Assembly (NCBI GenBank): GCA_003024785.1
Contig: PUQB01000328.1
Coordinates: forward strand, 186,001 to 250,000
Length of the DNA: 64,000 nt
Direction: 5' to 3'
DNA from: Selaginella tamariscina
Lineage: Eukaryota; Streptophyta; Lycopodiopsida; Selaginellales; Selaginellaceae
Made by a program: the position numbers and the translations under genes. A model generated the notes under the pieces. It was not told the origin of the DNA and did no database searches. It saw only the letters and a program-made list of their open reading frames with translations. The number at the start of each line of letters is the position of its first letter. The stretch's first letter is position 1. Below are positions 2,962 to 60,811 of the stretch, one piece after another.

Positions 2962-3536
2962 TCTTTCATTGGTGGAGAAGTTGGGTATTCCTTTCTTCCG
3001 CCTTTTCCTTTTCTTGTTTCCATGTCAATGAACATGAAGATGGCTTTTAACATTATTACTACTGCTATTGATGCATAAACTAAGTTGTTGGAGCGCTTTG
3101 TTGAGGGTCCGTCCTCCTCTTCCCCGCCTAAGCCTCATGCCAGGGGATCTGCTTCTAGTACTCCTTCATCTTCTTCACAGGCCACAAATCCGAGGGTTCA
3201 ACCCCGATCTTTTTGTGGTGATCCGGGAGATGATGTATACCACTAGTTTGATCATTTCCAAGTCATTGTTCGTTACTATGGTTGGGATGAGGCCCGTGCT
3301 CTTAGAAAATTCCCTACATGTTTGGAAGGCCCTACGCTCAAGTGGTATAATGGATTGGCTGTGGAGATTCAAGCCAATAGTAATCGGTTGACGGAATGCC
3401 TCAAACGTACGTTTGGCAAAGTTGAGGATTCAGATGATGCTTTCCAACAACTGTATGCGATACAACAACATCTTGGTGAGTATGTTATGCGGTTCAGTAT
3501 TAGGTTCGGGATTTACTTCGGCGTGCATATCCTAAC

Positions 3537-23231: not shown

Positions 23232-23898
23232 ATCTACAGCACAAACGTGAAATGTTTTAGTGCAGTATGACAAGCTGGTGTACATAGACGCGGACATAGC
23301 AGTACTCCGAAACCTTGACATGCTATTCGACTTACCGGAGATCTCCGCAACAAGGAACGATCAGAGTCTGTTTAACTCCGGCGTGATGGTCATCGAGCCG
23401 TCCAACTGCACATACAACTTCTTAGTAGAGCACATAAACGACATAGACTCGTACAACGGGGGAGACCAGGGATACCTGAACGAGGTTTACACGTGGTGGC
23501 ACCGATTGCCGGTCATCATAAACTTCCTTAAACACTTTGATAACGATACCGTGGAGAACACGAAGAAGCTAAACATGTTTACCGCGGAGCCGCCGGTACT
23601 GTACGGTATGCATTTCCTGGGGATTAAACCGTGGCTGTGTTATAGAGACTACGACTGTAACTGGAACCAGGACCAGCTGCATATATTCGCAAACGATGCG
23701 GTACACACTATGTGGTGGAAGATTTACGACAGTATGCCGCCGGGGCTGCAGCAGTTCTGTGCTCTGCAAGGTACACAGAAGTTCCTGCTGGAATGGGATA
23801 TTATTAAGGCCAGGCGAAGAAAGTACAGAGACGGACATTGGAAGATCCCTATACAGGACCCCAGGTGGCACTCCGTCAAGGCGGTTGGGGCTAGGTAG
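20739..23898 (+). CDS. GUX-type glucuronosyltransferase (GT8), copy B
   Basis: Five exons, 20739-20776, 20882-21082, 21313-21941, 22320-22600 and 23266-23898, join in frame to 593 residues, close to the usual GUX length. The start MRTSNEARYRLTGDDLSP mirrors copy A, where the same phase-2 junction falls just before GDD, supporting this exon 1. A membrane segment (VLSAVLFTLTSLLALYAL) anchors it in the Golgi. Catalytic blocks: REAYATILHS, YVCGAITLAHSIRSTG, SYNEWNYSKFRLWQL, DADIAV (DxD, binds UDP-sugar metal), LFNSGVMVIEPSNC, SYNGGDQGYLNEVY, HFLGIKPWLC and a C-terminal DPRWHS. It should add glucuronic acid side groups to xylan. Compared with copy A, introns have been lost or gained: copy B has no introns inside exons 3 and 5, where A is split. 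Exon 5 is GC-rich relative to its surroundings. Confidence 0.94.
22690..23245 (+). repeat. Three-copy minisatellite with CT tracts inside the last GUX-B intron
   Basis: Three copies of a block that begins CACGAATCCCATA, continues CCAGAAAATCCT and ends AACTTGTGACACACAC then TTTAAACTCTCTCTC (starts near 22703, 22833 and 23094). Copies 1 and 3 share GATGGACACTGCAGAGAATT. Long CT and C runs fill the gaps. The intron is 665 nt, much larger than most others in the gene, and the expansion explains why. Confidence 0.85.
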
Positions 23899-25894: not shown

Positions 25895-27106
25895 TCACCC
25901 CTTGCGTGCCTCCCCGCCCGCTCCTCCTCCAGCTCTCACCTCTTCCTCCGTGTCTGCCTCGTTCAGGTCTATCAATAAATTTTGAAGTATGCAACACGTC
26001 ACAATGCTGTCTGTTGCATTCCGGACCTCCAGATTCATCTCATCGTGCAGGATTCTAAACTTCATTTTCAGCACACCGAATGCCTGCTCCACAACCACAC
26101 GCGCCTTGGAGACTTCGTAGTTGAACATCGACTCTGCAGGTGTCCAGTGCCTTGGGTTTCCCATGTACGGTGCCGTCACCCACGGCCTACACCGATATGC
26201 CTTGTCTGCCACTAGGTAAGGTGATATCTCCCTCCCATCCCCCAGCACCATGCGCGTTGTTGCAGCACGCTGCCCCGACGACAGCGCTCTTGAAAACCAC
26301 ATAGCCTCCATATTCTACCGTCGTGCACAGAGCCAGGATATCCTGCATGCAAATCCAAAAACCTTCTCCTGCTGTCTACTATAGCCTGTGCAACAATCGT
26401 ATACCTGCTCTTTCGATTATAATAGTCATTCCCATGCTCCACTGGCCGACGAATGTTGAAGTGTGTGCAATCCAATGCCCCAGCAACATTTGGTAATTTG
26501 GAAAGTTGTTCAAATCCAGCAATACTCTCCATAACCTCTTCCAAATGACTTGGCCATTTCAACTTGTATCTGAATACTCGGGTGATTGCCTCACAGGTCC
26601 GTTTAAAACATTGAACTGCTGTTGATTGACCAATAGCAAACCGTTCTGATAAATCCAAAAAGCTCGGATTATTTAACAACTTATATAATGTGCAAGCAAC
26701 TTGAACAACAACCGGCACAGCAAATCTGTAGTTTGTGTCTTGATGTTTCAAGTCCACAACAAGCATCCGACATAACCAAAGAAACCTCTCCTTAGACATT
26801 CTAAAAATGTCTCCAACGCTCCTCATCGTAATAAGCCATTAAGAAATTATCAAACCATGCAATACTACGTGGCTTCACCCACCAAGGCCCGACATCCCTA
26901 TATCTACAAGCTACAAAGAATCTATTCTCTTCAAGAAACCACATATCTAAAGGATCAAATAATATTCTATCTTCACATCTTGCTCTCTTAACAGGTCTAC
27001 TACGACTTTTAAATAACTCTTTAAATAAAACAAAAAATAAAAACATAAACTGAAACGATGCTTCAAATAACTCATCAACATCACCTACATCTAATTGATA
27101 ATCCAT
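25895..27106 (-). pseudogene. HARBI1-like DDE transposase of the Harbinger element, frame-broken
   Basis: Read on the minus strand from MDYQLDVGDVDEL (27106) to the stop at 25895. The DDE_4 nuclease triad is recognisable: first Asp in GALDCTHFNI, second in PGSVHDGRIW, Glu in VVVEQAFGVLKMKF. Upstream is the helical N-terminal region (RMSKERFLWLCRML, FAIGQSTAVQCFKR) that binds DNA. The frame breaks twice: near 26805 in a run of five T (dropping one restores WRHFRMSKERF), and near 26290-26330 after the second Asp. Each is a one-base change, so this is either a young pseudogene or assembly error. The protein would excise and insert the element together with the SANT partner. Confidence 0.85.
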
Positions 27107-27297
27107 AATTAATTAACTTCTTATACTAATGATGTCCCTCGTTCTCGCTCTCACTTTTAGCTAATCGAGCTGATATTCAAAAAATATAAAATGTGTTAAA
27201 ACCATGAAACATGCAACAACTAAACTATAATGAATGCAATATCTAATGCCAACTTTAGTTTTACCTTCACGCATCTCCATTGCAGTTCCCATCCTCT

Positions 27298-27915
27298 TCA
27301 TGCCTTCTCCATAACTCCCAACACCCCCAGTAGCCCAGCCCTCTCTTCTTTATCAACACAAACTCGCTCTCGCTCAAGTTCCACCCACTCCTTATCGAGC
27401 TCCATCTTCAACGTGTCTCTATGAGCTTGCGACTCAGAAATATGTAGCAAAACCTTCCCTTGATTTTCTGAAGAAGCTCTAAGCGTGTCTACAAGTAACT
27501 TTGTACTCTCGTTGATTCGCTTCAAGCCCTTTGCCTTTCCAGTACTTCCAGGAGCTCTATCTCCACGTGCAGCAGTTGAAGTGTCACTTTGGAGCTCGTT
27601 TTCTTCTTCTGCTTCTTCTATGTGTTCACTCTCCGGTCTACTGCTATCAAACATTTTTGTAGGAGTCATCACTGGTCGTCTCTGCTGCACCTTGTATGTC
27701 CTCTCATCCATAGTAGGAAGGTTCTCTTTCTTACGCTCTGCAGGAGTCATCTTAAAGTAAGCTCCACTGCCAGTATGAGTTTGATAATCGTGTATCATAC
27801 GATAATCCGAGAGTAAATTCTCCCACTTAAGGCGACATTGCTCTGCAGTCCTATCCACGTTCTTAATCACTAACTCTGCAGCAATCTTCTTCCACTTAAT
27901 TGTCAACCTTTTCAA
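27298..27915 (-). CDS. Myb/SANT-like DNA-binding protein of the Harbinger element
   Basis: 205 codons on the minus strand. The visible N-terminus (IKWKKIAAELVIKN, RTAEQCRLKWENLLSDYR) is the third helix and end of a trihelix/Myb-SANT domain. Then a Lys/Arg-rich linker, an acidic patch (EEAEEENELQ) and a C-terminal helix rich in charged residues (LDKEWVELERERV), probably a coiled coil. In PIF/Harbinger elements this second protein is needed for nuclear import and terminal-end binding of the transposase. The domain start lies upstream (27915-28020, in another frame, with RAPNWRDHEIDALI-like sequence), so the true first exon is probably missing from this frame. Confidence 0.75.
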   Translation of the reverse strand: MKRLTIKWKKIAAELVIKNVDRTAEQCRLKWENLLSDYRMIHDYQTHTGSGAYFKMTPAERKKENLPTMDERTYKVQQRRPVMTPTKMFDSSRPESEHIEEAEEENELQSDTSTAARGDRAPGSTGKAKGLKRINESTKLLVDTLRASSENQGKVLLHISESQAHRDTLKMELDKEWVELERERVCVDKEERAGLLGVLGVMEKA

Positions 27916-28659
27916 ACTTGTCCCGTGATGAAGAAGATTGTTCTTGACAAAGCATCTCTTCTATTTTGGCAGTGATTAAAGCGTCAATCTCATGATCCCT
28001 CCAGTTTGGAGCTCTCTTCCTCTTTTTGAAGGCTCTCCACCTGAAGTTGGAGGAGCCTCAGCTATTGGTGTTGTTTCAGCATGTGCAAAGAAGGTGTGGG
28101 AGTAACAATTGGTGTAGAATTAAATGCCGGTTGTAGAGGAGTTGGTGAGGAATAGCTACTGAAGGTGTGGGAGTACTTATTAATGGTGTGGCAGAAGGTG
28201 TAGAGGGAATACTCCTCCTGTACAAAATTTACATTCTACTGCTCAAATGTTGTCCAATCTATTGCAAAAATATATGCATACTGTTACCTGGCTGCACTAG
28301 AACCTCCTCGTGCCATGTTTAAATTATCACTGGATTCACAAATGACTAGAGCTCCACGATACTGATCCACGAACACACAATACCCTAACCTTTATCCTAA
28401 TTCAATAAACATTAACTAAATCTTGTTAAAATTACTAACCGGGGGGAGCCCCCTAAATTTTACATTCAATTTACTAAAATAGTTAAGTTAACTTAACTTA
28501 ACTAATTTGGTGTGAGTACAAACATTTAATAAACCCCTGTTAAGTTTCACCTTAACAAGTTTTAGTAAATCTAAACTAAACTAATTTGGTGTGAGTGTGA
28601 TTGAGTTTAGTTAAATCCATTTTAACTATTGGTGTGAGTGCGCTAATAGATCTACACAT

Positions 28660-32518: not shown

Positions 32519-33059
32519 TCAGTTTTCCACATATATAAGTTATCTATGTCTAGGTATGTGTGCAACAAGTGAAATAAATTCTCCAGCATATTTGTGCAGA
32601 CCTTAAGGAAACCTATGTTTAATTGCACGCGCCGCGCGCGCACACACACGTGTACATGCATACATGTCTTTTACATGTATTAACACAACATAATTTACAT
32701 TATTTGGCAACATAATGGAGAGCTGTGTATATGTGTTTCTTGCACTTCTATATTAGTGGGTCCATGATATACACCTTGGCTCCTGCGTGTGTGTGCTTCG
32801 CGTATAAACTTAATCCGTATATGTTTACAGAACAAAATAACGAAAATAGAAAATGTGTATAGTGTATGAACATGTTATTTTTATGCAATATTGAATTCAT
32901 TTTCTATAATTTATATAACGAGTTAATTAAGCTTATAAGATAAGAAAAGAAGAACTTACAGAATGCGAATGTCTCTAAACCCACAACAGGAATGTAGATG
33001 TATGTTTGCTTTATTTATGTTAGCTTTTAAGGGAATTATAAATATATAAACCTTAAACT

Positions 33060-33729
33060 TGTAATACACAGTATATATGCATGTGTATACACACGTGCAT
33101 AGTGACACATGAGTGGTGATCTAGCCCCCATGTCAGCATCATGTGTTGCATGTGTGCTACATGGTAGAAGGTTTTTGTATATAAGCAGGGTTTTAAAGCT
33201 GAATAAAGTATCACATTCTGTACATATTTATTTGGTGGAGAAGTTGGGTATTTGTTCTTTTCTGCATATTCCTTTTCTTGTTTTCATAACAATGAATGTG
33301 AATACGGCTTTTAACATTATTACACATTGTTATTAATGCACATATTAAGTTATTGGAGTGCTTTATTGAGGGTCCATCCTCTTCTTCCCTGCATAAGCCA
33401 TGCTAGGGAATTTGCTTCTAATACTCTGTCTTCTTCATATGTCACAAATCCAAAGGTTCAACCCCAATCTTTTGGTGGTGATCTAAGAGATAATATATAC
33501 CACTAGTTTGATCATTTTTAAGTTATTATTCGTTATCATGGTTAGGATGAGGCTCGTGCTTTCAGAGAATTCTTTACATATTTAGAAGGTCCAATGCTCA
33601 AATGTATAATGGATTGACTGTGAAGATTTAAGTTAATAGTAATCGACTGACGGAATGCCTCAAATGTATGTTTGATAAAGTTGAGAACTTAGATGATGTT
33701 TTTCAATAATTGCATGCAATACAACAACA
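33060..33729 (+). mobile_element. Decayed copy of the 2780-4650 LTR element, broken by the 15-kb element
   Basis: The LTR-like part (about 33068-33210) repeats the 2780-2961 LTR with the same ATACACA..TGTGCAT hairpin words, the GTGACACATG..GTGGTGATCT stretch and a TGTATATAAGCAGGG promoter-like box. Then GGTGGAGAAGTTGGG and gag sequence follow to 33729, collinear with 3060-3470. The match stops at ACAACAACAT, exactly where the inverted terminus of the large element begins. In the intact copy this sequence continues CTTGGTGAGTATG, so this is an insertion junction. Confidence 0.8.
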
Positions 33730-33757
33730 TATGCAAGTTGTAACTAAAATGGGCATG
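33730..33757 (+). repeat. Left terminal inverted repeat of the 15-kb element
   Basis: Begins TATGCAAGTTGTAACTAAAA and ends TGGGCATG. Pairs with 48728-48755 with two mismatches. Confidence 0.8.
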
Positions 33758-34235
33758 GCTATAGTCCCATTTCCTAATAATTAGCAATTTTAGCTATTTA
33801 ATTAGCATTTTCTAATATTAAAGGAATATTCTTTAGAATATATGTTTGAAAAGAGAATATTCTTTAGAATATTCTATTTTGTATTCTACCCTTTAATAAA
33901 TTATAGCATTCATTGAACAAAAATTAATAACATTATAAAAGTAGAATGTATTAAATTATATAATAATTGCCTAATATAACAATTAAGGAAGAGCATAAGA
34001 GGTACATTATATAAATATTGATGTTGTTATTAAAATATTAATATTTAAATATAACATTATTAATTAAAAATTTGTAGTAGTAATATATATATATAAAATC
34101 CTATAATAATATAGTCAATCTTCCATATCATTTTTTAAATTTATATAGTTAAGTATACAATTTGGTACTATTATTAAAGAGTTTATAATAATTATGAATA
34201 TTAAATATATGATATTTTATAATTTTGTAATTGCT

Positions 34236-37200
34236 TTAAGCTTCAGAAAACATACATTCCCTTGCAGTTTTGTTAATCGTGACTTTATCAACGCTTCTTG
34301 ACATCCACCCATATCGAATGGATTTAACATTTATAAAACATGCTGGGTCTTTTTGATTGGGAGACCATGTTTTCTCTAGGCATCCATTATATCTTTCGCT
34401 CTCCTTCTCGTGTCGCCTTTTTTGTGGTTTGAACCATGCAACCTTAACAATACTATTTTTTGTGATTACTTCAGGTGTGTCGATAATTTGACCCATCCAA
34501 ATAGGCTGATTATATGACGCATCTGGAGTAATGAGAACCATCATTAGTTTTTGAAGATCCTTGCAGCAATCAAAGTATGCTTTAGGTTTTTGGTTCCTTT
34601 GTCCAACAAAGTGTGGGGTTTGCACTTCCACATCACTACTGGCTTCTATGTCGTCTGCTCAGTGATGTCATTTCAATCTCCTCTCGCCACCTTGTTTTAG
34701 GCCAGAAAGGGTGTTGCAATTCTGTACTTGTGACAGTAGGCCCTTCCAACTCTCGAACAACAGTCTCCCAATAGTTGACCACATGCTTATATAGTTCTGA
34801 GTAACCAGTTGCCTTATCAGAATTCTTTGGCATCGATTTTTGAACCCATGCCACATATTTTTTGATGCCATCAATAATAACCTCTTGTTCCTTGAGCTGG
34901 GCACTCAATGGAATAGGGTCTGGTTGTCCTTCTGGGAGAAGTGGCTTTCCATCCTCTCCACTTTTGAAGAGCATTAAGCCCTCTTTCGGTAACCACTCCT
35001 GCTCTGATGGCCGTAACTTGTACTGCATAATAGGTATACCATCTCGTATGGAGAAAAAGAATTGTAGCGGCACAAGGTGACCAACTAAAGAATCACTCCC
35101 TTCTTTTATATACTCCTTGAGAAATTTTTTGAAGTCTGGCACCTCAGTCACAAGCAAAGCACAACTTTTTTTGGAGATGCAATTTTCAAAAAGATTCATC
35201 ATATGCGGTAAGGTAAGTGCACTTGTCCTTTTTGTAGAGTTGGAGACCTTGCTGAAGAACGCATCAATATCTTCATGAGTGTGACCAACCATAAGGAAAC
35301 TGAGCGTGATTGTTTCAAACACACCTTTGGCAACAAGCATTGACAAGTATGCTAGCACATATCTAGAAAATAAAAGTAAGTATGAGCTTGAGAAACCCTT
35401 AAGTAAAATGATTTACCTATTTTTGTTCTCGCCTGCACAATTATCCATCTGTAAAAGCAAATGACGAGGAAGCTTATTTGATGTTGAGGACACATGTACA
35501 CTATTTGAGCTAGATCCCTCCACTGAACCTGAACTCTCAACAGGGCCATCTGTTTTTTGTGCAGGTTGCTGACAATGCCTCTCATATTCCCAAGTAGCCT
35601 CAAGTGCAGACGTGTTCATGAGAGCATTATGTAAAGGTTGAAGGTGTTGTTTCTTCACTTTGAGATCACTGATAGGACTTGTCTGTGAGTGGGCTTCAAG
35701 GTTTCTGAAACACATGGCTAACGACCCAATAGTGAAATTGGAGTCGCTAGACCAATGTGGAAGTGAAAAGTGTCCATATGACTCACAACCGTGTCCATGT
35801 GTTAGCACACCTGTCAATGAAATCGGAAGTTTCATGACATTTCCAAGGCACTTTGGTGTTGCAAAGAGCTTTGGAATGCTGGTCTTTGAATGATCCATCT
35901 TGTCATGGATCAAGCACAGGTACTCTGATGGGCGTGACACAGAAAGCATGCGGTGTGCATAGTACTGAGACCGACAAGTTTGTTGTGCAATCATGTGGGC
36001 CTCCATCTTCCTTTGAATGGTAGTGATCTCCACCAAGGTTTTTGCACAAGCCTCTGCAGCCTTCAATGATGTACAAGTGTCACACTTAGAAAAGCTAGAG
36101 TGTTTTGCAATCTCCACATCCTTAAAATGAGTATTCCATATGTTGTTGAAGGTACCAGTGCAGATTGCTTGGAGCCCCATCAAACTGAGGCACTTGTTCA
36201 CATGTTCACACAGTTTCAATTGAGTGTAGATTGAAGGTAAAACCTTGAGATTTTCCCTGACCCCTGCATTTGTGGTTCGGCATTTGTGAGGCATCCTGTC
36301 TGCATTTGCTTCCACAAAAGCCTTGAGTATCTCTATGGCTGCCATGATGTGAGAGCGGGTTTTGACCAAGCGAGTGTTCCCATGAACTGAGGTTCGCGCT
36401 CCATCTAGCCACTCATCCCTCCGACGGTAGAACGTGGTCTTTGGGATCCCGTATATACTGTACCAAGCTTTGAAGCAGATGGCCACCTTATTAAATACCA
36501 TGGATGTACTCTGATAACCTGTGTCCGAGGCCATTCCATCAATACACCCAGTTAGTGCAGCATATACAAACTCATGCCTTTGCTTTTGGGTGAGCATACG
36601 AAAGACATGTCTACATTGGGTAATTTCATTCCGGTCTGCCATCTGACAACACTTCTTCTTGCAACAGTCAATCGTGGAAATGCTCGTAACACTTTCGGAA
36701 GATGTAGGATCCATCTTTACCCTCTTGCTGAAACTTGCAGGGGAAGATCTACAACCCATGAATCGCCTTTTTCTTACAATAGGACCAATGCAAGGAACCT
36801 CTTCAAATATGAGTTGTTCTTCCGGGTTGTTATTATTGAAATCCAACCCAGAATATGTTGAACCATCTTGCCGTCTTAATTCAGATGTTCGCCACCTCAC
36901 GAGGGATCCAGGATACAATGTGCCATTAGGTGAAACCTCTGTCACAACTACACCCACGAAGTCGGACCCTAGTTTCTCTTCTGACACTGCTTCCATTGGA
37001 TTTATAGCTGTGATGATGCCTCTTCCGACTTCAATCTCACGAAGAAAGAGAATCACCTCATCCATCACAGCAGGCAAGCCATCATCTGGTAAACTCGTGC
37101 TACTATTTGTTTGTGACTCTGCATATTCTGTGTCAGCCTTGACTTCATCCAAATTCCACAATACAGGAGAACCCTCCTCAAATTCCATTCCCAGAACCTC

Positions 37201-37359
37201 AACATGCTTGTAAATGGTGTTCACCCATACGTACACACAAGATCCTTGGGCAATATTGTGACATGATGCATTATTATCTCGAACTTCCACAGTTCCAGTG
37301 CCAACTATCTCGTTGTTCCGAAGAAGACATACTTTATCTCCAGTATTAAACATATTGTC
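34236..37359 (-). CDS. Large DUF7869-like protein, putative DDE/RNase H-fold transposase
   Basis: Minus strand. Exon 37359-35417 (first ATG at 37353), a 54-nt intron 35416-35363 (GTAAAT...TTCTAG) and exon 35362 downward, restoring the unbroken motif NCAGENKNRYVLAYLSML. The N-terminus has SH3-like, beta-rich sequence (DKVCLLRNNEIVGTG). The middle holds Cys-rich DCCKKKCCQ, PKTTFYRRRDEW (HTH-like) and FSKCDTCTSLK. The C-terminal half carries possible acidic catalytic positions: IHDKMDHSKT, LLLQMDNCAGENKNR and VGHTHEDIDAFFS. These are the hallmark blocks of the DUF7869 family, often seen in multicopy, transposon-like genes; a DDE transposase role is inference. The frame shifts by one base near 34640-34690; the tail (34631-34236, PHFVGQRNQ to CMFSEA) continues in the new frame. 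A good acceptor (TTATGTGCAG) just before 37359 implies an upstream 5' exon that I could not find. Confidence 0.75.
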
Positions 37360-37507
37360 CTGCACATAAATAATTGTATTATTTATGATATCTGTTTATG
37401 CAATATTTTTAAGAAATCTGAATTACGGTTACTTAATAATATGCATATGCAATAATACATAATTATGTTTAGAGATAATATCTCATGTTTGATTAATACA
37501 ACTGATG

Positions 37508-38305
37508 GGCGGGATTAATCCCGCCACGAATCCCTCCGACGAGGAACGGTCGGCGGGATTAATCCCGCCGCCGACTCAACCCCTTCGGAGAGAGTCGGCG
37601 GGATTAATCCCGCCTTGGACTCCCTCCGACAAGGAAGAGCCGGCGGGATTAATCCCGCCGCCTCTTCCTCGGGGGAGTCCGGCGGGATTAATCCCGCCGA
37701 CTCTCTCCGACAGGAGAGTCCGGCGGGATTAATCCCGCCGACTCCCTTCCTCTCGGAGAGAGTCCGGCGGGATTAATCCCGCCGGACTCCTCCGACAGGA
37801 AGAGTCCGGCGGGATTAATCCCGCCGACTCTCCTCCCGGGAGGTCGGCGGGATTAATCCCGCCGGACTCCCTCGACGAGGAAGGCGGCGGGATTAATCCC
37901 GCCGGCTCTTCCTTGTCGGAGGAGTCGGCGGGATTAATCCCGCCCACAATTCTTACGACGGGGAATGGGTGGCGGGATTAAACCCGCACATAACTCTCTC
38001 CAAAACTATGATTTCAAAGAGATCTCGGGATAAATCCTGTCCCCAAATCTTAAAACAGGGTGGTGGCGAGATTAATCCCGCCACCCCTTCCCTGCCTCCT
38101 AAAATGGTTGGCGGGATTAATCCCGCCGACAACTCTTTCTAATAAATTCTGGTAACTCTTCATCAGTTGAGAAGGTTATCGACGGGATTAATCCCGCCAC
38201 TCTTTTTCAGTGGCGGAGAAGCATTGCCCGAGATGGTGGCGGGATTAATCCCGCCACCTCTTCGAAAGAGCGAAAAAGAAATGGCCGGATTAATCCCGCC
38301 GCCCC
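37508..38305. repeat. Palindrome array 1, about 17 copies of GGCGGGATTAATCCCGCC
   Basis: The perfect 18-bp palindrome GGCGGGATTAATCCCGCC recurs every 39-47 bp from 37508 to about 37943, then more loosely and with changes (for example near 37971, 38065, 38108, 38178, 38237, 38284). Several copies extend to longer palindromes such as AGTCC...GGACT around the core (37762-37789). Spacers of about 20-25 bp are G/C/T mixtures (CTCCGACGAGGAA, TCGGAGAGAGTC) that look related, some to their own reverse complements. The array lies just upstream of the DUF7869-like gene, where its promoter should be. GC content is far above the surrounding sequence. The copies look conserved in the core while spacers drift. 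Confidence 0.97.
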
Positions 38306-38309
38306 GTTA

Positions 38310-39660
38310 ACCTAGAATATTAAGTTAAAAGGATATTTAAACGGATAAATCCCTAACGGAATATATTATAATCCTAATGCCCTAAATTGTAATTTTAAGA
38401 GAGAATGTAAGAGAGTGAATCTTATAAGTATTTTTAAATTTGTTTATAATACTTACTTGTAAACAGCACTGAAGGCGCCGTGCTTTCCTATAAAGAATAG
38501 CACCCAATTTAATCTCGCTCCTGAGATGATCACTATGAAGAAAAAAGAAGATCTAAAGAGTGAAAAATACAGAAATGAAGAAACCCTTGCCGGAGAAAGA
38601 ACCAGATCTGAATTTGAGTGGGAAATTAAATGCATTTTCAAATTTACATGTCAGACCGACAATACATATGTCAGAAATTCAAATTTTTTAAAAAGAACAG
38701 AAAATAAAATTTAAGATGAGTTGACACAAATATCCGACACTCTGACATATATACTCTCCAGTTCCAATGAGTATTTTAAAATTGCATTTAATGTTATTCA
38801 AGTGATTCAAGCTGTTTAATATTACGAAATTTTAGACTATATTCTACATTCTTAGTATTCAAGTATATTTTATATATATATATATAAATATATACTTATA
38901 CAATAAATAAATTGATATATTATTATGTATCATTTAAAATATATTCATAGTCTGTTTATTATTATTATTTTCTTAATTACTCGAGTATTTAGTTTTCATT
39001 TCCTAGTATCAATGGGATATTCTTTAATATTTTATTAATATTTGAAGAATATTCTAATATTAAACCTGATTATCATAATTAAATTAGTCTTGTTCTTAAT
39101 TATTGCAGTAATTATTCTACATTTGTATATATTAATGGGATTTTCTCAATTAATTTGTTATTATTTCAAGAATATTCATGTGTTAAACCTTATTATCAAT
39201 ATTAAATTAATACACACTATGAACATATTTTAAATTATACATAATAATACATCATTTTATCTAATATATAGTCATATATAGTTTTAATAATATATATATT
39301 AATATCATTTCCTTAATTACTTGAGTAATTAATCTTCTTTATATTAATGGGATATTCTTTATTATTTTCTTATTATTCCAAGAATATTCCAATATTAAAC
39401 ATGATTATGATAATTAATTTAGTTAATTATTTGAGTACTTAATTTACATTTGTATATATTAATGGGATTTTCTCAATTAATTTCTTATTATTTCAAGAAT
39501 ATTTCAATGTTAAACCTTTTTATCAATATTAAATTAATATATATTATTAAAACTATATATGGCTATATATTAGATAAAATCATATATTATTATGTATAAT
39601 TTAAAATATGTTCATAGTGTGTTTATTAATATTATTTTCTTAATTATTCGATGTTTGTTT
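38310..39660. repeat. AT-rich repeats with a 90-bp inverted repeat
   Basis: A unit of about 110 bp (TTAATTACTxGAGTA, TATTAATGGGATATTCT, CAAGAATATTCxAATATTAAAC, GATTATxATAATTAA) recurs about four times between 38975 and 39520. The segment 39208-39302 (CACACTATGAACATATTTTA onward) is the reverse complement of about 39530-39622 with few changes, and a third partial copy of the same end lies at 38925-38970. The last two can form a large hairpin. No coding is seen. The AGAATATTC words also occur near both termini of the element. Confidence 0.8.
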
Positions 39661-39699
39661 TGCACACATATATAAACACAATCATAAATTTACACACGC

Positions 39700-40560
39700 A
39701 TTACAAGAACTTACAAAAACACATATGCACACACATGCACAACCCTAAACCAAACTGAAGAAATATGTTGCTTCTTTATTGAAAACATCATGTTCAACGC
39801 ATGTATGATATATGTACTCAATCTGTGTGTATGTAACACATTGAATTTACATGTGTAATATTTATATTAAGCTTGTTGGGAGCAAACCCTAAACCCTAAA
39901 CCCTAAACCCTGTGTATACATGTGTGTACAAAAATAATTTTTCAACACTCTCTCTTCACACCATGCATGATCCATCCTAAACCCTAAACCCTAAACCCTA
40001 ATATGTAACACAATGAATTTACTCATGTAATATGTATGTATGTCTGTGTGTATACACGTGTGCATGTATATATGTGTACTTGTATGTATATATGTGTACT
40101 TTCTGTCTTCTCTCATACATACACACCATGCATGATCCATGTTAATATGTACTGTCTCTCTTCTCTCAAACATACACACCATGCATGATCTATAATATGT
40201 ACTCGGTCTCTCTAATATTATGTACTAATGTATGTATGTATGTCTGTGTATAATACACACCATGCATGATCCATAATATGTACTGTCTCTCTTCTCTCAT
40301 ATACTATGTATGTATATCTGTGTATAATATGTGTAAGTATATATGTGTACTAATATATGCAATGTGTACAAAAATAATTTTTCAACACTCTCTCTTCTCT
40401 CATACATACACACCATGCATGATCCATCCTAAATCCAAAACCCTAAACCCTAAACCCTAAACCCATGTAATATGTATGTATGTCTGTGTGTATACACGTG
40501 TGTATGTATATATTATGTGTATTAATATATGCAATGTGTATGTATGTATTGATACACATG
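39700..40560. repeat. Interstitial telomere-like CCCTAAA tracts and satellite-like repeats
   Basis: Plant-type telomere repeats appear three times: about 39885-39911, 39976-40000 and 40438-40464, each with three or more CCCTAAA units. Between them, ACCATGCATGATCCAT, TGTATGTATGTCTGTGTGTAT and TACTGTCTCTCTTCTCTC recur four or five times. Confidence 0.9.
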
Positions 40561-40679
40561 AAACTTTAACACTCTCATGGACACACACATGTTAAATCCC
40601 TGCATGATTTATATTTTTGGGGTGTATGTGATACACCCACGCACACGCACGCGCTAATAATATAATGAAAGAATATTCG

Positions 40680-40805
40680 TTTAGGGCGAATCTATATTTT
40701 ATTCTTTTTAGGGTTTAAGTATATTCTCAGAAGGAATATTCTATTAGGGTTAATATATATATTTAATTCCTTTAGGGTTTAGGTATATTCTTAGGGTTTC
40801 AAGAG
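40680..40805. repeat. Short repeats of TTTAGGGTTTA/AGAATATTC before the satellite
   Basis: TTTAGGG-like words (TTTTTAGGGTTTAAGTATATTC, read in part) alternate with AGAATATTC. They may be diverged telomere-like sequence. A GGCGGCGG tract (40804-40835) follows. Confidence 0.5.
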
Positions 40806-40839
40806 GCGGCGGCTGTGAAATCGGCGGCGGCGGCTGTGC

Positions 40840-40853
40840 ACACAGGTGAGATC

Positions 40854-40884
<31 letters not shown>

Positions 40885-41150
40885 ATATGTATAGGAGTGT
40901 GCGTATAAATTTATTTATTAGTTTTATCTCTCGCACACACACGCACACTCCTGTGTATGTATATGTGTGTGTGGGTGTGTGTTTGTTTATCTGTATGATT
41001 TTATTTGTTTCGCTCACACACGCATACACACGATATACATATACACATATATATATATACCTATATACATATATACATACATATATTATGTGTACCAGTA
41101 TCTGTAAATTTTTTTTTATTGATCTATCTCTCCCACACACACGCACATGC

Positions 41151-41216
<66 letters not shown>

Positions 41217-41955
41217 ATATAATGCATATTAACAAATAGTATACAACACTAGTTTATATATGCTTATATATTCATATGGGTTATATATCTATATAACACA
41301 TATATATATGTGTGTTTTTTATCTGTATAATTTTATTTATTTATTAGTTTTATCTCTCGCACACACACGCACACTCCTGTCCTGTGTATGTATATGTGTG
41401 TGTGTGTGTGTTGTTTATTTGTATGATTTTATTTGTTTTGCTCACACACAGCATACACACAATATACATATACACTATATATATACCTATATACATATAT
41501 ACATACATACAACACTAGTTTATATATGCTTATATATTCACAGACTCTCTCTCTTTCTCTATGGATTATATATCTATATACACACATATATATGTGTGTG
41601 TTTATCTGTATAATTTTATTTATTTATTAGTTTTATCTTTCGCACACACACGCACACTCCTGTGTATATATATGTGTGTGTGTGTGTTTGTTTATCTGTA
41701 TGATTTTATTTGTTTCGCTCACACGCATACACACGATACATATCATACACACATATATATACCTATGTACACACATATATTATGTGTACCAGTACTGTAT
41801 AATTTTATTTATTTATCTATCTCTTGCACACACACGTACACTCCTATACATACATACATATAATATATAATATATAATATTATTACACACACACATATAT
41901 ATATGTGTGTGTTTTTATCTGTATAATTTTTTTATTTATTAATTTTATCTCTCGC
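40840..41955. repeat. Microsatellite-based satellite, about 300-bp unit
   Basis: A unit of TTTATCTGTATxATTTTATTT, TTAGTTTTATCTCTCGCACA, CACACACGCACACTCCTGT, a TG run, then a TA/CA run repeats about four times (starts near 40895, 41315, 41610, 41915). There is a long perfect CA run followed by TA at 41152-41217. It separates the two palindrome-bearing blocks. Confidence 0.9.
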
Positions 41956-41964
41956 ACACACGCT

Positions 41965-43600
41965 AAGCCCTCGAGCGCGATTAATCCCGCCGTTATAGGT
42001 TTATAGCCTCGGCGGCGGGGATTAATCCCGCCGCTATATGGTTGGGGCCATGGCGGCGGGATTAATCCCGCCGCCGAGGCCCTTCACGCAGGCTATGGGC
42101 GGCGGGATTAATCCGCCGCTCTACGACAAACCGAAGAGCGGCGGGATTAATCCCGCCGCCCATGGCCTGCGTGAGGGGCCTCGGCGGCGGGATTAATCCC
42201 GCCGCTCACCCATGCCCTGCGCGGAATGCGGGATTTATCTCGCCGGCAATGGCCTGTGTGAAGGCCCTAATGGGCGGGATTAATCCCGCCGGATTCCGCG
42301 CGGGCATTTACAGGGGATGGGCGGCGGGATTAATCCCGCCGCTCATGAGGCTAACCGAAGAGCCTGCATGAAAGATCCTGCACGGAAGGCTAACCGAAGA
42401 GCCTGCATGACATGTCCTGCGCGTAAGGCGGCGGGATTAATCCCGCCGCCCAGGGAATTCACGCAGGACATGAACGCGGGATTAATCCGGCCCCACGCTC
42501 ATGCCCTTCGCGGAGGGCGGCGGGATTAATCCCGCCGCTCAGGCACTTCCGCAGGATATAAGCGGCGGGATTAATCCCGCCCCCACCCATCCCTGTTCAA
42601 AATGCCGCAGCCAATATATATGTGTGAGCGCATGATTTACGAGAGGGCGGCGGGATTAGTCTCTCCGAACCTTCATTACCCGGTGGCGGGATTAATCCCG
42701 CCACCCTTCTTTTTTCCTCCATTGGTATGTTGAATCAATCCCGACTAACTCTGTCTGAGACGGAGAAGGTTTACAAAATACCAATGGAGGGAACTGAGAA
42801 GGGTGGTGGGATTAATTTCACCATCCCTTACATGGTGGGCGGGATTAATCCCGCCGCGTACGCATGCCCTGCGCGGAATCGGGCGGGATTTATCCCGCCG
42901 CCATTGGCCTGCCTGAAGGGCCTAGGCGGCGGGATTAATCCCGCAAGATTTCGCACAGGGCATTGGCGTTCGGCGGGATTAATCCCGCCGACTAAGGCCT
43001 GAGTGAAGGGCCTGGGACGCGGGATTAATCGCCGGTACGCATGCCCTGCGGAATCGGGCGGGATTTATCCCGCCGCCATTGGCCTGCCTGAAGTGCCTAG
43101 GCGGCGGGATTAATCCCGCCCGATTCCGCGCAGGGAATTGGCGTCCGGCGGGATTAATCCCGCCGCATAGGGACCGAGTGAAGGCCCTGGGCGGCGGGAT
43201 TAATCCCGCCGAGTCTTCAATGCCTGTTGGAGGAATGAATCCCGCCACCCTTCTTTGTTTTCTCCATTGGTGAGTCGGACCAATCCCAAACGTTTCTGTC
43301 TGAGACGTAGAAGGTTTTCAACATACCAATGGAGAGAATTGGGAAGGGTGGGGAAATTCATTTAACCATCATTACATGGTGGGCGAGATTAATCCCGCCC
43401 CCTTTCTGGAGTCACTGAAGGGGTGTGAGAAATAAATCCTGCCCAGTTCTCTCTGAGAAACCGAGAAGGGTGGCAAGATTAATTCCGCACTCCCGTTCAA
43501 GGCCTCCAGAGGCATTGAAGGGGTGGCGAGATTAATCCCGCCACTCTTTCAGGAGGCATTGAAGGGGTGGCGAGATTAATCCCGCCGCACCTTCCATGTG
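41965..43600. repeat. Palindrome array 2, about 30 copies of the same 18-bp palindrome
   Basis: Copies of GGCGGGATTAATCCCGCC, many perfect, some with TTAAT to TTTAT or one-base changes, at roughly 40-50-bp steps (for example near 42053, 42139, 42185, 42273, 42322, 42428, 42520, 42838, 42973, 43103, 43147, 43192). Between about 42230 and 43200 the spacers include CATGCCCTGCGCGGAAT and GGCCTGCGTGAAGGGCCT. The latter occurs in both orientations (near 42075 as the reverse complement), so the array mixes orientations. The 3' part (43380-43590) is looser. It lies directly upstream of the ParB-like gene start at 43930, mirroring array 1. Confidence 0.96.
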
Positions 43601-43929
43601 AATATATATGTGTATTAGTATATATAAGTTGCATATCTCATTTTATTTACTTTTATCATCTTATCATAATATTTCGAGTAAAAGCTAGGAATCTATGTAA
43701 AACTGTCCAGAGCTCACATTTGTGGTGGTTCTAAAACGAAATGTTATCTTTCTTTTGCACTAACACAAATGTGAGCTTCGGACAGTTAATTACGTCTACT
43801 TCTCTCTGTGTATTATTTTTGTATATTCGGGTTTATACAAGTGTGTGTGCGTTTTTATATAATTTATATTTATAGTGTATTATTTTGCAGAAGGACGATT
43901 TGATCAAACAAGGAGATCGAGTCATTAGT

Positions 43930-46900
43930 ATGGAGTCGTCGTCAAATTCTGGGTAAGAATTAAAATAAAATCTGTTATACTCGGATACTTGAACTAATCA
44001 TTTTTGTATTCAGATGTGGAATTGAGGTGACATTAAAGACAAGAGCAGGAGAAGAGATGGGCAGGGGGATTCTGGAATCAACTTGGCCATATTTTAAGAT
44101 AAATGGGAAGCGCATTGGAGCAACCATGGCTGCTGTCAAATTAACCTCTGTCACATCTCATGGACAAGCAAAACAATGGAAAGTAGATTCGCTAGTCAAG
44201 CACCCGAAAGCAGGCTGCGAACCCAGATTGGACGATGCTCGACACATATGCCTTGTTCCATCCAATGTCACGTTCTCGGATCCAGAGGTCGTCAGTTACA
44301 ACATTAATTTCGGGTGGTTTTGTCGACTTGTGGATAATGACGTTCACGTGTTCACTAATGATGTTGACCTTGGAGTTCTTCTTCAACTCAACGAAAGCCC
44401 ATCTATGGAGGGGATCCATCTGGATGTCTACTTCGAAAATCTTCAGACTCATCGAGTAGGTGTATTGTCAGGAGATATTGCTTCACAATACAGAAAATCA
44501 GCAAGTGAGCAATCTCCCTCTTCACATTGAAGAAGAACACAGCGACATCATAATGGAGATTGAGAGGGTGGCTCGGTCTCAGGTTCTCTACAGATCACGT
44601 TCAATTTGCTTAGGGAGCTTTGGGAGCTGGAAGAGTGTACCGAGAACACTAGAACAGCTGCAGTCGGGGATCACACATGTTGATTCGGATCGCAAAAGAA
44701 AATCATCAATCGTTTTGTCAGCTGCACCTGTGGCATCTCATGCTGCAATAAGTCACAAGGAAATGATGTTGGATGATAAGATTTATCCTTGTAGGGTTAA
44801 ATATTGCAGCGTCAACCCAAACTTCAATTACAGGCCACTCAACCAGGAACGTGTAGCTGAGCTCATGGAGAAGATGAAGGACGACAATTCTTATACCGTT
44901 CCACATAATGCTGTTTTGTGTCCATACTATGAAAGAAGGAAGGGCGCTGACAAAGTCTGGATCACAACACCAGAACAACTCATGAAGATTCAGACGGAGA
45001 ATAAAAAATCTATCAAGTACTACATCATTAGTGGCCAGCACACAATAACGGCAGCCCAACGACTTCTCGAGGAACACAACAAAGGAACGATGGCAACAAA
45101 ACTTTCCGAGCATACCCGTGAGAAGCTGACAAAAAGATCGGCGTTTTTAGCTAAGCCGAATCTCACAATCGAGCAGTACCATAAGTTATCGGCGGAATGG
45201 GACGCTGCCGACACCAACCACTACAACAGCAAAATATGGGAGAAGTTTAAACACACGCGAGCCGTGTGGGAATCTCTTCAGCGACCACAAAGAGCTACCG
45301 CAGGGAATACACAATCTGCGGAATACCGGGTAAGCAAATTGTTTGGGCGGGATTTATCTCGCCGGTATATTAATCTGTCTTTTTCCTCAGAGAGTTGAAG
45401 AAATTGCAGCAGTTGATTTTGCCCAGGTGGGCGGGAAGGAAACATCCTTTCTGATGATGTTGATTTCTTGCCCCGAAGATACTTTGCCAAATGGTTGGGG
45501 ATTATGGAATCCTTTTCAAAAGGAACACTGAAGAAGAAGCAGACAAGTGAAGGGGAGCCCTCAGAAAAGTCTGCAAAGAAACCCAGTAAGACGCCGAAGG
45601 CTAAGTCTGTTCAATCTACAAAGGATGTAGACAACGATTTCAAGCTCACATGGTTGAAGCCTTTAAATGGAACAACGATGGAGGAGATGGAAGTCTTGGC
45701 TGATTTGGTGATCGATGGCAAACTACAAATTAATAACAGCAGCCCAACCTCTCCTTTTCATCTCAAGGCAATGGAGTTGAAGACGGTCAGGCATTTCAAG
45801 GAGTGGTTGGGAATACACTGCCACAAACTGGGTTGGACCTCGACTTCAACATATGAAGAGGTCAGCAAATATTTGCATGTGACGAACGATGATATGCTTG
45901 TCGAATGGGTGAACCAATCGGAAGATCTGGGCAAGAATCTATTGCACGCCAACGCCAAAAAGGAGAACATTGGGATGACGCCTTCTCTTATGGCAGTCCT
46001 TCAGCAGCGGAGAACCGAATTGAACCTTATAAAGGAGGATGCTACAAATCACGACAAGCCCTACAGATGTTTGTTGTTAGATTCGGAGACTTTATGGGTA
46101 ACATCACTGCTTGTAGGAAACCGTTTCAATTGTTCGTGATGGATCGGCGGGTGTCAAAAAATCTTTCGACAGATAGGGCACTAGAGGATCTGGTGGAGAA
46201 ACTTAGCCGTGCAAGCATATACATAGAAGGTATTTATTATTGAATTCATGCTTGCGCTCTTCACTGATACCTACTTTTTCAGGTATTTATTTCTTGATTC
46301 TTGCTCATGTCACCGATACTTTTGCCTTCGCCTTCGCCAAGAAGAATAGACATCGTTGGACAGGATTTTATATGAACGATGCTAATCCCAAGTGCATTGA
46401 TACCGTTGTTCACTTGGTTGTTAGGAATGCGCCAAACAATTTCAAGCTTCCAAATGACTGGCCAGGCATCTGTTTGCACTCCAACGGCCCTGAACCTCCA
46501 TCCGATACACCGATAGGTATGAGTGACGTATTCGACAATGTACGTTATCCAAACATTACAAGTCAAGCGGCACGGAGCATCGTCAACTTGATTAGGGGTC
46601 CTCACAGTGATGCGTGGGTTTTTGACTACTGCACTAGGGGGTCCGTCTTGAAGGAGTGTTACCTTCGGCATACATGTGTGTTTGCCGTTGAAAAGGATAA
46701 GACCATGGTTGAGGACCTGAACAAGTGGATAGATTGGGTCTCAACTGAGTACCCCAACGATTCCATAAAGGCGTATTTGAGAAAGTTCCCTCCAGATAAG
46801 TGCGATAGCTCTGAAGGTGAATCTGGTTCAATCTCGGAGTCTGAGAACGAACTTCAATCAGATATTAGACCGGAAGTTATCTCGAGGAGTACAGAACATT

Positions 46901-47028
46901 CGCACACTCCAGGACCCATGGAAACATCAATAGAAGATGCAGAAGATCTTGAACCATCTCACAAGCGGCTTAGACCTTCTTCGCCTCACTCAGAAGGTAA
47001 TAGCGAAGAAGAATTGATAATGAATTGA
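43930..47028 (+). CDS. ParB-like protein with possible degenerate N4/N6 DNA methyltransferase tail
   Basis: Spliced: 43930-43952, 44014-44455, 44502-45329, then 45391 or 45427 to about 46229, and 46283-47028. Introns are 46-61 nt except the 45330 one. A central block looks like the ParB/sulfiredoxin-type nuclease fold: FNYRPLNQERVAELMEKM, a variable strand, then YYIISGQHTITAAQRLLEE, where SGQHTITA sits at the family's G-x-H-R loop (Arg missing). The C-terminal half resembles beta-class N4/N6 methyltransferases: SQAARSIVNLIRGPHSDAW, FDYCTRGSVLKEC (motif I position, Gly-rich loop weakened) and VFAVEKD. No DPPY box is visible. ParB-MTase fusions are known from phage and mobile elements. The frame shifts by one base near 45427 and again near 46000-46060, so this copy may be non-functional. 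The far C-terminus is acidic and Ser-rich. Confidence 0.6.
45344..45363 (+). repeat. Lone diverged palindrome inside an intron of the ParB-like gene
   Basis: GGGCGGGATTTATCTCGCCG lies within the 45330 intron. It has the ATT-to-TTT and CCC-to-CTC changes seen in some array 2 copies (near 42230). It is outside the arrays by 1.7 kb. Confidence 0.85.
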
Positions 47029-47300
47029 TAGAGTGACGAATAGTTGTAAATGAGTGTAACATAAGGCATTTTTGTATATTTCTTTTATATTTGTACAGAA
47101 AATAAATTCTCAAGGATTAATGAAGCTTTTAGTTCAAACATGGGTCACACATTAACAAGGTAAATAATATACCTTGATAATTTTAAGGTCAGCTAATTAT
47201 CATTTTGCAGATGTAATGAAATAATTGAGAACATGGATTTTCAGCATTGCCATGAGGTAAGAGAGGGGTTTGGCGACAATTTCTTGTGCCACATGTCAGA

Positions 47301-48466
47301 ATGACAGAGTTCATGCAGGAAATGGATAATAATGCAGCTCAAAACATCGTTACCATGGGGGCCACTTCATCATCATTTTTATTGGCTTCAGTTCCGAAAT
47401 CAATTTCTTCAGCGCATGCAATATCTGAATCTTGTAAGGATGATGTACAATTAAATGATGAAGGGATAGGCAACGAGATAGTGGCAACGGATAAATGTGA
47501 AAGGGAGCAAACAAGTGATTTGCAAAGTATTCAAGAGGCAACGCCATCTCATGTTACTCATGGCCATATTGTGTTGTTGGATGTCAATGGTGTTCTGCTT
47601 CATCGACAAAGGCCCCAGGATAGAAAAAAGAAATCAAACAAGGAGATTTCATTCCTTGTCATGGTAAATTTCGATATGATATTATTTTTCGTCCAGGGTT
47701 GGATCGTCTCTTTCAAAAGCTTAAGGAGATGGGTGCGCTTGTGGGGATTTGGTCATGCATGCAGATTCATAACTTAACACCGCTGTTGAATTTACTTAAG
47801 AAACATTGTAGTGTTGCAGAAGAGGTGATTCGTAAAGATTGGATTTTTGACCAGCGAATGTGTCATAAACCTCTCGAATTTCAGAATATAAGAAAGGAAA
47901 GCAAGCCATACTTCTTCAAGAATGAAAGAATAATTGGGACTCATGGGGAGATCAGTCGCTTAAGGATAATGAAGAACGCACAGATGTTAGTAGTAGACGA
48001 CTCTCCTCAGAAGGCTATGCTCAACCAAAACATTGCTTGTATTCATCCAATCACTTTCGATCCATATTCTGATACCGATATCATGGATGAGCTAGTGAAC
48101 TACTTGGATACGTGCCTCAGAAAGAAGAATCTCGAAAATTTTTGTGAGCAGTATCCACCGTATCATACATTTCCTGAAGCTTTTCTTTCTCGTGATATTG
48201 AATTTTATAAAATGAAGGATAGCAACCGGGCGCTTTATAATATTATTCTTAAGGAACGTCAGTTTTTAGATGAGCCTTTATGCAGACCTTCTCTTATCAC
48301 ATCTTATGTATTAACAAGGATGGCAACTCCCAATTGCATTCGTGAGAGTGTTAAGTGGTGGCAACAACATCAAGATATTGACCAAAATGATTTGATTAAT
48401 CCGGAGAGTGATGATTTAGACAAAATGAAAAGATTTCTTTGTATGATAGAAAGAAAGTATTTATAA
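47301..48466 (+). CDS. FCP1/NIF-type HAD phosphatase-like protein
   Basis: Read from the ATG at 47301. Residues about 85-110 give HIVLLDVNGVLLHR, HAD motif I with the second Asp replaced by Asn (D-x-N-G); the same DVNG form occurs in some land-plant NIF-domain proteins. After a one-base frame change in the A-run at 47624-47630 come KFRYDIIFRPGLDRLF, GALVGIWSCM and, as motif III, MLVVDDSPQKAML (DDSP-x-K), then a helical C-terminal region to the stop at 48466. FCP1-like enzymes dephosphorylate Ser/Thr on proteins such as the Pol II tail; with the changed motif I activity is unclear. It sits in the same orientation and 270 bp downstream of the ParB-like gene. The exon 5' of 47301 was not resolved: a candidate 47211-47254 exon ends in a good GTAAGA donor but does not join in frame. 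Confidence 0.72.
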
Positions 48467-48727
48467 AAAATTAACATGTTGATAAGAAAATGATTTCATT
48501 TGTAATTATGTTTGATAGTATTTCTTCATTATTGTAAACTATTTTTAGAATAATATGAATATTCTAAGATATTTTAGGAATATTCCTTACTAAGTAAGGT
48601 TATTGAAGGATTAATTAATTAATTAATTAATATTTAAGGCTTAATTACATATTAATTAAATGATTAATTAATAATTAAAACTTAAGTATTAATTAGTAAT
48701 TTATTTTATATTCCCATTTTCACGTAT

Positions 48728-48755
48728 CATGCCCACTTTAGTTACAACGTGCATA
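48728..48755 (-). repeat. Right terminal inverted repeat of the 15-kb element
   Basis: Reverse complement begins TATGCACGTTGTAACTAAAG and ends TGGGCATG. Differs from the left copy at 2 of 28 positions. AT-rich sequence with AATATTCC words lies just inside (48560-48600). Confidence 0.8.
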
Positions 48756-49735
48756 AGGATGGTCAATGAGTTTAGCCAGGTAGTTCAACATGCTCAAGCA
48801 CAAGACGCTGAGGTGTAGGAGCTCAGAGGACAGCTAGAGCCACCATTCTCATTTTAGGATGGAGTTTTGTACTACAATGGCTTGTGTGTATCTTCCTTGT
48901 ATGGACCATTTGATCAATCAGTTACTATATTTCCATCATGATCACCCGGAGGCTAGTCATTTTGGGGGGAGGAAAACGTATGAGTTGATCAAGAGAAGGT
49001 TCTATTGGAGGAATATGAAAGCTAATATCATAGAGTACTGCAGGACTTGTGACAAGTGTCAGCAAGTAAAGGTGCCCAGGGAAAAACCAAGTGGGCTATT
49101 AGTACCATTGCATATTCCAAACAGGCGATGGAGCAGTATCTCTATGGACTTTGTCACCCATTTGCCAAGGACATAGTGGCATTGGAATGAGTCCATATTA
49201 TGCTATGTTTGGACGGCATTCCAAGACATCTTTTGAGTTGGGTTTAGCAAGTAAGAAAGCTCAAGGCAACATGAATGAGGAAGCTAAAGATTTGAGTGTT
49301 AAGCTTAGAAACATTTAGAGTTTATGCAAGAAGAACTTACAAATAGCTCAGAGCCGAGCTATCAAGTTTGTTAATGAGCACAAAAGCTTCCAAGAGTTTC
49401 AGGTGGGAGATTATGTATATTCTCTGAGTGGTATTTGCCACACATGTAAGGCAGAACACTATTGTGGCCTTACGGAAGGGACACAATGATAAGTTGTCTC
49501 CCAGGTACTCAGTCCTTATGAGATTCTGAAGCGTATCGATAAGGTGACATATCGACTACGATTGCCAGAAGGAGTGAGGGTGCACCCAGTGTTTCATATT
49601 AGCCAATTAAGAGAGTACTCACAAGGAATGAGTCCCGGGTAGATTCTTTGTGGATGTACAAGGCTAATGATACAAGACCAGTTGAGTAAGTTATACTGCC
49701 CTTGAGGACAAGGACTTGCTAATGGGGGGAGGATT
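48756..49735 (+). mobile_element. Ty3/gypsy integrase relic
   Basis: The frame 48859-49176 gives an integrase H2C2 zinc-binding block: HHDHPEASHFGGRKTYELIK, RRFYWRNM, EYCRTCDKCQQVK, followed by PLHIPNRRWSSISMDFVTHL at the start of the catalytic core. The rest of the core is missing; sequence then picks up SPYYAMFGRHSK and a chromodomain-side region (49190-49700) with stops. A purine tract (GGGGGGAGGA, 49725-49734) and TGTTATGACCCG follow, a probable polypurine tract and LTR start. Confidence 0.82.
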
Positions 49736-60472: not shown

Positions 60473-60811
60473 AATCCTCAGGACCTCAGATATATAAAAG
60501 GGTTCCAGTTCCAGGTTTCTCAGAATCATTCAACACCAGTCTTCGGCCTTGTGTTTCATTTTGTATTCATTTCTTTCTTGAATACAATCTCCTCCTTTCA
60601 AGGTTCCACCCTTGTTCTAAAGGTTTGCCCTTTGCACAAGGTCGTGACAGTTTGAATGATTCTGAGGTAGTGACAAGCTTCTGTTTCCGCTTGTCATCGA
60701 TCCCATTTTCTTTCTTTCTCTCTTTTTCAATTTTCTTTTCGATTTTTTTCTTTTCTTTTTCTTTTTGATTTTCTTCTCTTTTTTTTTTTGATTTTTCTTC
60801 TTCGACTCATC

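Follow-up and report, generated by a model that had tools for sequence, protein, structure and literature searches.

Boundaries of the element

We analysed a 64-kb window of Selaginella tamariscina DNA (64,000 nucleotides of contig PUQB01000328.1, assembly GCA_003024785.1), in which the interval 33730-48755 forms the element under study. Between inverted ends of 28 bp, it carries a minus-strand gene for a DUF7869 protein (gene A), a divergent plus-strand gene with a ParB-like stretch (gene B), a plus-strand gene for a HAD/NIF (FCP1-type) protein (gene C), and two arrays of an 18-bp palindrome, one upstream of gene A and one upstream of gene B. The arrays are the most striking part of the element and were absent from an earlier reading of the letters alone (the sequence-only reading), which had proposed a mobile unit with these ends and genes. 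All coordinates are those of the window.

The left terminal inverted repeat (33730-33757, plus strand) and the right one (48728-48755, minus strand) are identical at 26 of 28 positions, as the sequence-only reading had reported, and are unique in the window. The end pattern, with up to three mismatches allowed, occurred at only two places, both of them element ends, and at none in 100 shuffles. Complex 28-mers with an inverted identity of at least 26/28 and lying 0.5-25 kb apart formed 14 pairs in the window, namely 12 in the palindrome arrays, the element ends and a self-palindromic pair (2796/4486); each of five simulated windows without arrays gave 0. The 28-mers may consist of 26-bp ends plus a TA duplication, in which case the left repeat would be 26 bp long and start at 33732.

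The left end starts where a retrotransposon relic breaks off, a second earlier observation that held. The left flank aligns to another Gypsy gag copy at 2760-3471 with 79.8% identity, the alignment ends at 33730/3471, and in a comparison of the whole window with itself the homology of the left flank likewise stops there. On the right, the open reading frame (ORF) 48838-49173 encodes a Gypsy integrase zinc-binding domain (Integrase_H2C2, E=2.6e-19) that starts about 150 bases beyond the element's end. The gag sequence to the left and the integrase sequence to the right share one orientation, which fits a Gypsy relic whose middle was lost. Elsewhere in the window, translations of a plus-strand Gypsy derivative at 3247-4100 seem to join gag straight to integrase, suggesting an internally deleted family; Pfam gave no match on 3504-4100 at E≤0.001.

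Shorter palindromes lie just inside both ends, with three copies of GAATATTC in a left subterminal cluster (33824-33874) and two in a right one (48557-48585), so that five copies fall within about 200 bp of the ends. With the arrays masked, the element holds 10 copies against 0.44 expected under a first-order model, and six occur in the 49 kb outside; this octamer was chosen after ranking 256 8-mer palindromes, among which it came third by excess behind ATATATAT and TATATATA. It is a candidate site for binding of the ends.

Gene A encodes a DUF7869 protein

Gene A (34236-37365, minus strand) encodes a protein of about 1,020 aa with a DUF7869 core. It consists of two main exons with a short GT-AG intron between them (about 35363-35416), and one frame change lies behind the conserved core (about 34.64-34.66 kb). 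Both exons match DUF7869 (PF25273) above the Pfam cut-off of 26 (90.6 and 47.2 bits; E=1.3e-25 and 2.5e-12), which upholds this part of the gene content proposed earlier. The 650-aa exon matched proteins of about 1,050 aa with 99% of the query covered (E=1.1e-99). Eight relatives were found with this exon and 13 with an alignment of those eight, together 19 distinct proteins. Identity to the long relatives is 31-36%, and several proteins of about 1,055 aa carry precomputed labels for DUF7869 and DUF8039 (PF26133); DUF8039 gave no match in the window's own protein (Pfam, E≤1) and was not listed for relative P0001. Two of the relatives are predicted proteins of the fern Adiantum nelumboides (P0017 and P0019), each of which combines the family's N-terminal part with other sequence; these are possibly fusions caused by element remnants, or annotation errors.

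In an alignment that took 11 of the 19 relatives, gene A keeps 117 of the 138 columns invariant in at least nine of the 11, acidic motifs included: IHDKMD (D486, D489), QMDN (D639; family form Q(L/M)DN) and GHTHED (E678). Relative P0015 is unaligned at GHTHED. RNase H-fold transposases follow the order strand with D, two strands, helix, strand with D, helix, strand, E. The strand order of the gene A family agrees with theirs, as read from strand order and motifs in a low-confidence model; further comparison rows for a DDE/RNase H fold cover mainly residues 1-91. The N-terminus of one relative also matched Transposase_23, a domain of plant En/Spm elements, at a score below the threshold (E=6.6e-4, 19.9 bits, cut-off 21). 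Judged by these sequence features, gene A is probably a transposase.

Upstream, a donor CAA/GTAAGT at 38457 and an acceptor TGCAG/GAC at 37360 point to a probable leader intron of gene A (37360-38456, minus strand), the donor scan having returned one other donor-like site in the stretch scanned. With this donor and acceptor, the whole left array would lie inside the leader intron. The gene A family gave 47 pattern matches in viral contigs (IMG/VR) and 37 in prokaryote genome contigs, with 0 confirmed in either, and absence from these collections says little about plants. DUF7869 is not mentioned in the literature searched.

Two arrays share a conserved palindrome

The 18-mer GGCGGGATTAATCCCGCC occurs 45 times with at most three mismatches, 27 times exactly, where chance predicts 0, and 44 of the copies lie in the two arrays. 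The left array (37508-38300, upstream of gene A) has 17 copies with at most two mismatches, 13 of them exact, and the right array (41974-43586, upstream of gene B) has 27 with at most three, 14 of them exact. Start-to-start spacing within the arrays is about 43 bp (sd 3.9, spacings <55). The 45th copy (45346-45363, two mismatches) stands apart, inside a probable 61-bp intron of gene B (45330-45390). Neither viral nor prokaryote genome contigs contained the palindrome pair (0 found), and the full 18-mer is absent from the literature searched, where one paper contained its 12-mer core alone.

The palindrome cores are far better preserved than the DNA between them. Between arrays, cores are identical at 0.924 of positions, versus 0.319 for the 10+10 flanking bases (493 pairs), and 85 of 94 CpG sites in the cores are intact, both figures coming from copies picked at ≤4 mismatches, a choice that inflates core identity. 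The 13 + 14 exact copies are independent of that choice. We rejected the idea that the arrays as a whole escape CpG loss: their observed/expected (o/e) CpG ratios of 1.16 and 1.03 stem from the core, and their spacers (0.67 and 0.64) resemble the surroundings (0.68). The spacers differ between the arrays, so recent copying of one array into the other does not explain the shared core. High core identity and intact core CpGs, set against diverged and CpG-poor spacers, thus argue that the core probably owes its preservation to selection or to conversion confined to it.

Gene B carries a ParB-like stretch

Gene B (43930-47028, plus strand, about 975 aa), read from translations with open frames between three frame changes, is divergent from gene A and has a short first exon with GT-AG splice sites. 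A leader intron is possible at 40846-43890 (plus strand; donor CAG/GTGAGA, acceptor TTTTGCAG/AAGG). The acceptor ending at 43890 is clear, and the donor at 40845 is one of seven donor-like sites; the pairing is a guess because the six others lie between.

The ParB-like stretch of gene B (about 44751-45137) contains NPN...R...SGQHTITAAQ, which we take to be a motif of the ParB N-terminal domain. A set of 108 viral ParB-like sequences was retrieved with a generic consensus, and against this set the stretch aligned in the expected register with an hhalign score of 21.1, equalled by one of 200 shuffles and none of 80 real decoys. A ParB-like identity, which the earlier gene list had included, is weakly suggested by these comparisons.

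The C-terminal part holds HSDAWVFDYCTRGSVLKECYLRHTCVFAVEKD (46603-46698), which by eye is like the S-adenosylmethionine-binding FxGxG motif of N4/N6 DNA methyltransferases. The presumed DPPY position reads DRRV, and a methyltransferase assignment was rejected, since the score against a profile of 42 sequences was reached by 27 of 200 shuffles and eight of 80 decoys. Where a viral locus gave both matches, the two domains, ParB-like and methyltransferase-like, stood in one frame (30 of 30 cases), so the domain pair itself is common.

Relatives of the gene B protein numbered 0 among 6,878 candidates at E≤1e-3. None was found in phages, one pattern match in viral contigs (IMG/VR) was unconfirmed, and short gene B pieces gave no more than weak, chance-like matches in phages and plasmids. 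PDB sequence searches returned no trustworthy match: one to designed dTor repeat proteins (E=2.9e-8) was discarded as repeat-inflated, p27 chains at E of about 0.01-0.08 were distrusted, and no phosphatase was listed.

Gene C, the non-coding centre and the surroundings

Gene C (47286-48466, plus strand) encodes a HAD/NIF (FCP1-type) protein by Pfam and has one frame change near 47.62-47.66 kb. Its second part matches PF03031 (NIF/FCP1-type HAD; E=3.1e-9, 37.2 bits, gathering cut-off 21.8), in agreement with the HAD gene named in the sequence-only reading.

In repeat scans, the central part of the element (38311-41959) proved AT-rich, with CA/TA microsatellites and three CCCTAAA runs. Imperfect long repeats occupy 38897-39651 and 41175-41771 of this non-coding centre and comprise tandem repeats with a period of 327 and two direct copies separated by about 270 bases. 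The CCCTAAA runs, of the plant telomere type, are short and lie at 39884-40464, near repeated CACACCATGCATGATCCAT units.

The remainder of the window holds other mobile elements and ordinary genes. On the minus strand, 25898-27960 carries a PIF/Harbinger-like pair of a DDE_Tnp_4 transposase (PF13359) and a Myb/SANT protein (PF13837). On the plus strand, another Gypsy-like element with a reverse transcriptase frame lies at 60674-63660 (RVT_1 at 62206-62922), and ordinary genes encode a Transferase family protein (PF02458, 10049-10972), a mitochondrial carrier (14259-14894) and a GT8 glycosyltransferase (23251-23895).

Interpretation

We regard 33730-48755 as probably one copy of a large DNA transposon, with gene A as its transposase and the arrays as control sites bound by a dimeric protein. 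The single mobile unit proposed by the sequence-only reading gains partial support from the matching ends, the relic break exactly at the left end, the transposase-like gene with its motifs, and the shared arrays linking divergent genes; its target duplication is at most 2 bp.

In mechanistic terms, the element would have entered an old Gypsy element with an internal deletion, and its target would most likely have been TA. The gene A protein would be an RNase H-type nuclease using acidic residues in IHDKMD, Q(L/M)DN and GHTHED; it would bind the ends, perhaps via subterminal GAATATTC, excise the element and join it at a new TA-containing site. Genes B and C would be accessory genes. Both arrays, one in the leader region of each divergent gene, would serve as control sites for a dimeric protein, and the favoured binder would be the element's own ParB-like gene B protein. 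ParB-type proteins bind clustered palindromes, which is one reason for this preference. The other is the ParB-like/methyltransferase gene of the brown-algal transposon Sola1-1_Ec32, as described in passages of PMC12477816. Gene B as binder is thus proposed by analogy, and host factors are about as likely. If the unit is mobile, DUF7869, an uncharacterised family, would move to the transposases and a new superfamily could be defined.

Several points weigh against this interpretation. The case for mobility rests on the anatomy of one copy. The readable target duplication of at most 2 bp is ambiguous and reads TA if the element is taken as 33732-48753, and the gag and integrase flanks are non-contiguous Gypsy parts, which requires us to assume that sequence was deleted either before the insertion or in the course of it. 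The coding DNA, about 7.4 kb, contains five frame changes, which may mark a decayed, possibly inactive copy, or may be assembly indels. The AlphaFold2 model of relative P0001 is poor in the catalytic part, where 242 of residues 526-804 have a predicted local distance difference test (pLDDT) score below 50. For gene B, the ParBc profile found no match (Pfam, E≤10) and the hhalign probability for ParB was 6.6%. The mismatch-based choice of palindrome copies belongs here as well.

The foremost alternative, possible but on balance unlikely, retains the transposon and has its arrays bind host factors, such as an E2F-like protein at GGCGGGA half-sites or another plant dimeric regulator, the arrays having been captured as enhancers of both genes. 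The half-site GGCGGGA does resemble the E2F consensus, each of the two genes has an array at its 5' end, and most of the 20 non-exact copies are altered in one half only, which a dimer site could tolerate. An exact 18-bp palindrome with a central ATTAAT is, however, longer and stricter than an E2F site, and the 45th copy sits in a short intron of gene B.

A more specific form of our preferred interpretation, which we hold to be unlikely, gives this vascular-plant transposon its own ParB-parS-like system. The ParB-like (formerly ParB-methyltransferase) protein, seated on the 44 leader palindromes, would mark or organise the element's DNA and keep promoters active or copies together. If so, a transposon from an unnamed superfamily, that of DUF7869, would possess a eukaryotic system of self-recognition.

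The arrays could instead act as RNA, forming 7-bp hairpins with a UUAA loop in leader introns and folding spacers that affect splicing or feed small RNAs. The left array and the 45th copy lie in probable introns and the right array in a possible one, and the spacers are partly self-complementary, folding better than base-shuffled controls (mean z -1.10, 37 spacers) with an end-to-end dyad match of 0.37 vs 0.26. In the copy at 42805 every pair survives changes on both sides, but this is the sole such case among the 18 copies with stem changes, of which two keep all 7 pairs, and no Rfam family reached its gathering score in 33000-49500. We judge a role as RNA doubtful.

We are no more inclined to believe that the two ends are those of another terminal-inverted-repeat element, smaller or unrelated, and that the genes are captured or nested passengers, unmoved by gene A. 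One copy is seen, the gene content is mixed and gene C resembles a plant HAD family gene, all of which would suit passengers. Genes A, B and C nevertheless take up the interval from one end to the other, A and B are tied together by arrays built on a common core, and the element contains no second non-array pair of inverted 28-mers matching at ≥26/28 positions and ≥500 bases apart.

An endogenous virus-like or replicating element (Maverick/Polinton or a giant-virus fragment) in place of a cut-and-paste transposon is very improbable: 15 kb of multi-gene DNA with ParB-like and HAD genes, and an AT-rich centre set between palindrome arrays in the manner of baculovirus hr regions, would be in keeping with it, but introns are present, the ends span only 28 bp, the IMG/VR pattern matches of genes A and B (47 and 1) include no confirmed relative, and Pfam, run on nine of the 14 ORFs of at least 120 aa (the other five being two on microsatellites and three opposite larger ORFs), found no polymerase, protease, packaging or capsid family, nor at E≤1 any Maverick/Polinton polymerase, integrase, protease or packaging ATPase inside the element.

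Comparison with known systems

Two systems outside plants share the arrangement of palindromes seen in the putative transposon. In bacterial ParB-parS systems, short palindromes cluster close to the gene of a ParB-like protein; here the host is a plant, no ParA was seen and the ParB similarity is weak. Baculovirus hr regions are likewise spaced palindrome arrays, which work as enhancers or origins, whereas the element gives no sign of a replication function.

Among transposase families, gene A belongs to DUF7869 (PF25273) by score and keeps the acidic motifs, its relatives being known here as proteins alone. CACTA (En/Spm) elements often have binding sites repeated close to their ends or leaders, and the N-terminus of one DUF7869 relative weakly matches Transposase_23; the ends of the element, however, read TATGCA or TGCA, not CACTA. 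In CACTA/EnSpm (CMC group) transposases, the region from the second D to the last E holds C(2)C and H(3-4)H, according to passages of PMC12730594. The stretch D639-E678 of gene A has no CxxC, which together with the non-CACTA ends excludes a standard CACTA element as described in those passages. Kyakuja-Dileera-Zisupton (KDZ) elements have target duplications of 7-8 bp, and TA duplications are described for other lineages (passages of PMC12730594). The element shows no duplication above 2 bp, although, with non-contiguous flanks, a longer one may have disappeared; the Pfam hits of window ORFs at E≤1 included no KDZ family.

Within the literature searched, nothing came closer than Sola1-1_Ec32, a 21.5-kb giant Sola1 transposon of the brown alga Ectocarpus described in passages of PMC12477816, a paper that, on transposons of green and red algae, cites Iyer et al. 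2011 and Petroll et al. 2025. The passages of PMC12695648 mention neither ParB nor land plants. Sola1-1_Ec32 is likewise a giant DNA transposon with a ParB-like accessory gene on the strand opposite its transposase; that gene encodes a 1,104-aa protein combining ParB-like and DNA methyltransferase parts, and the authors suggest that proteins of this type bind the transposon that encodes them and modify it (PMC12477816). It differs in having a Sola1 transposase, where DUF7869 stands here, and a brown-algal host. Its methyltransferase domain is assigned, whereas the tail of gene B is degenerate and fails the profile test, and the passages of PMC12477816 mention no palindrome array, unlike the element here. 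The element probably takes its place among giant cut-and-paste transposons with accessory genes, with a transposase lineage unnamed in the literature searched. Passages of the algal-transposon literature name no site for the proposed binding of a transposon by its own protein (PMC12477816), and the 18-bp palindrome, with 44 copies in two arrays, supplies a concrete candidate that makes this proposal testable.

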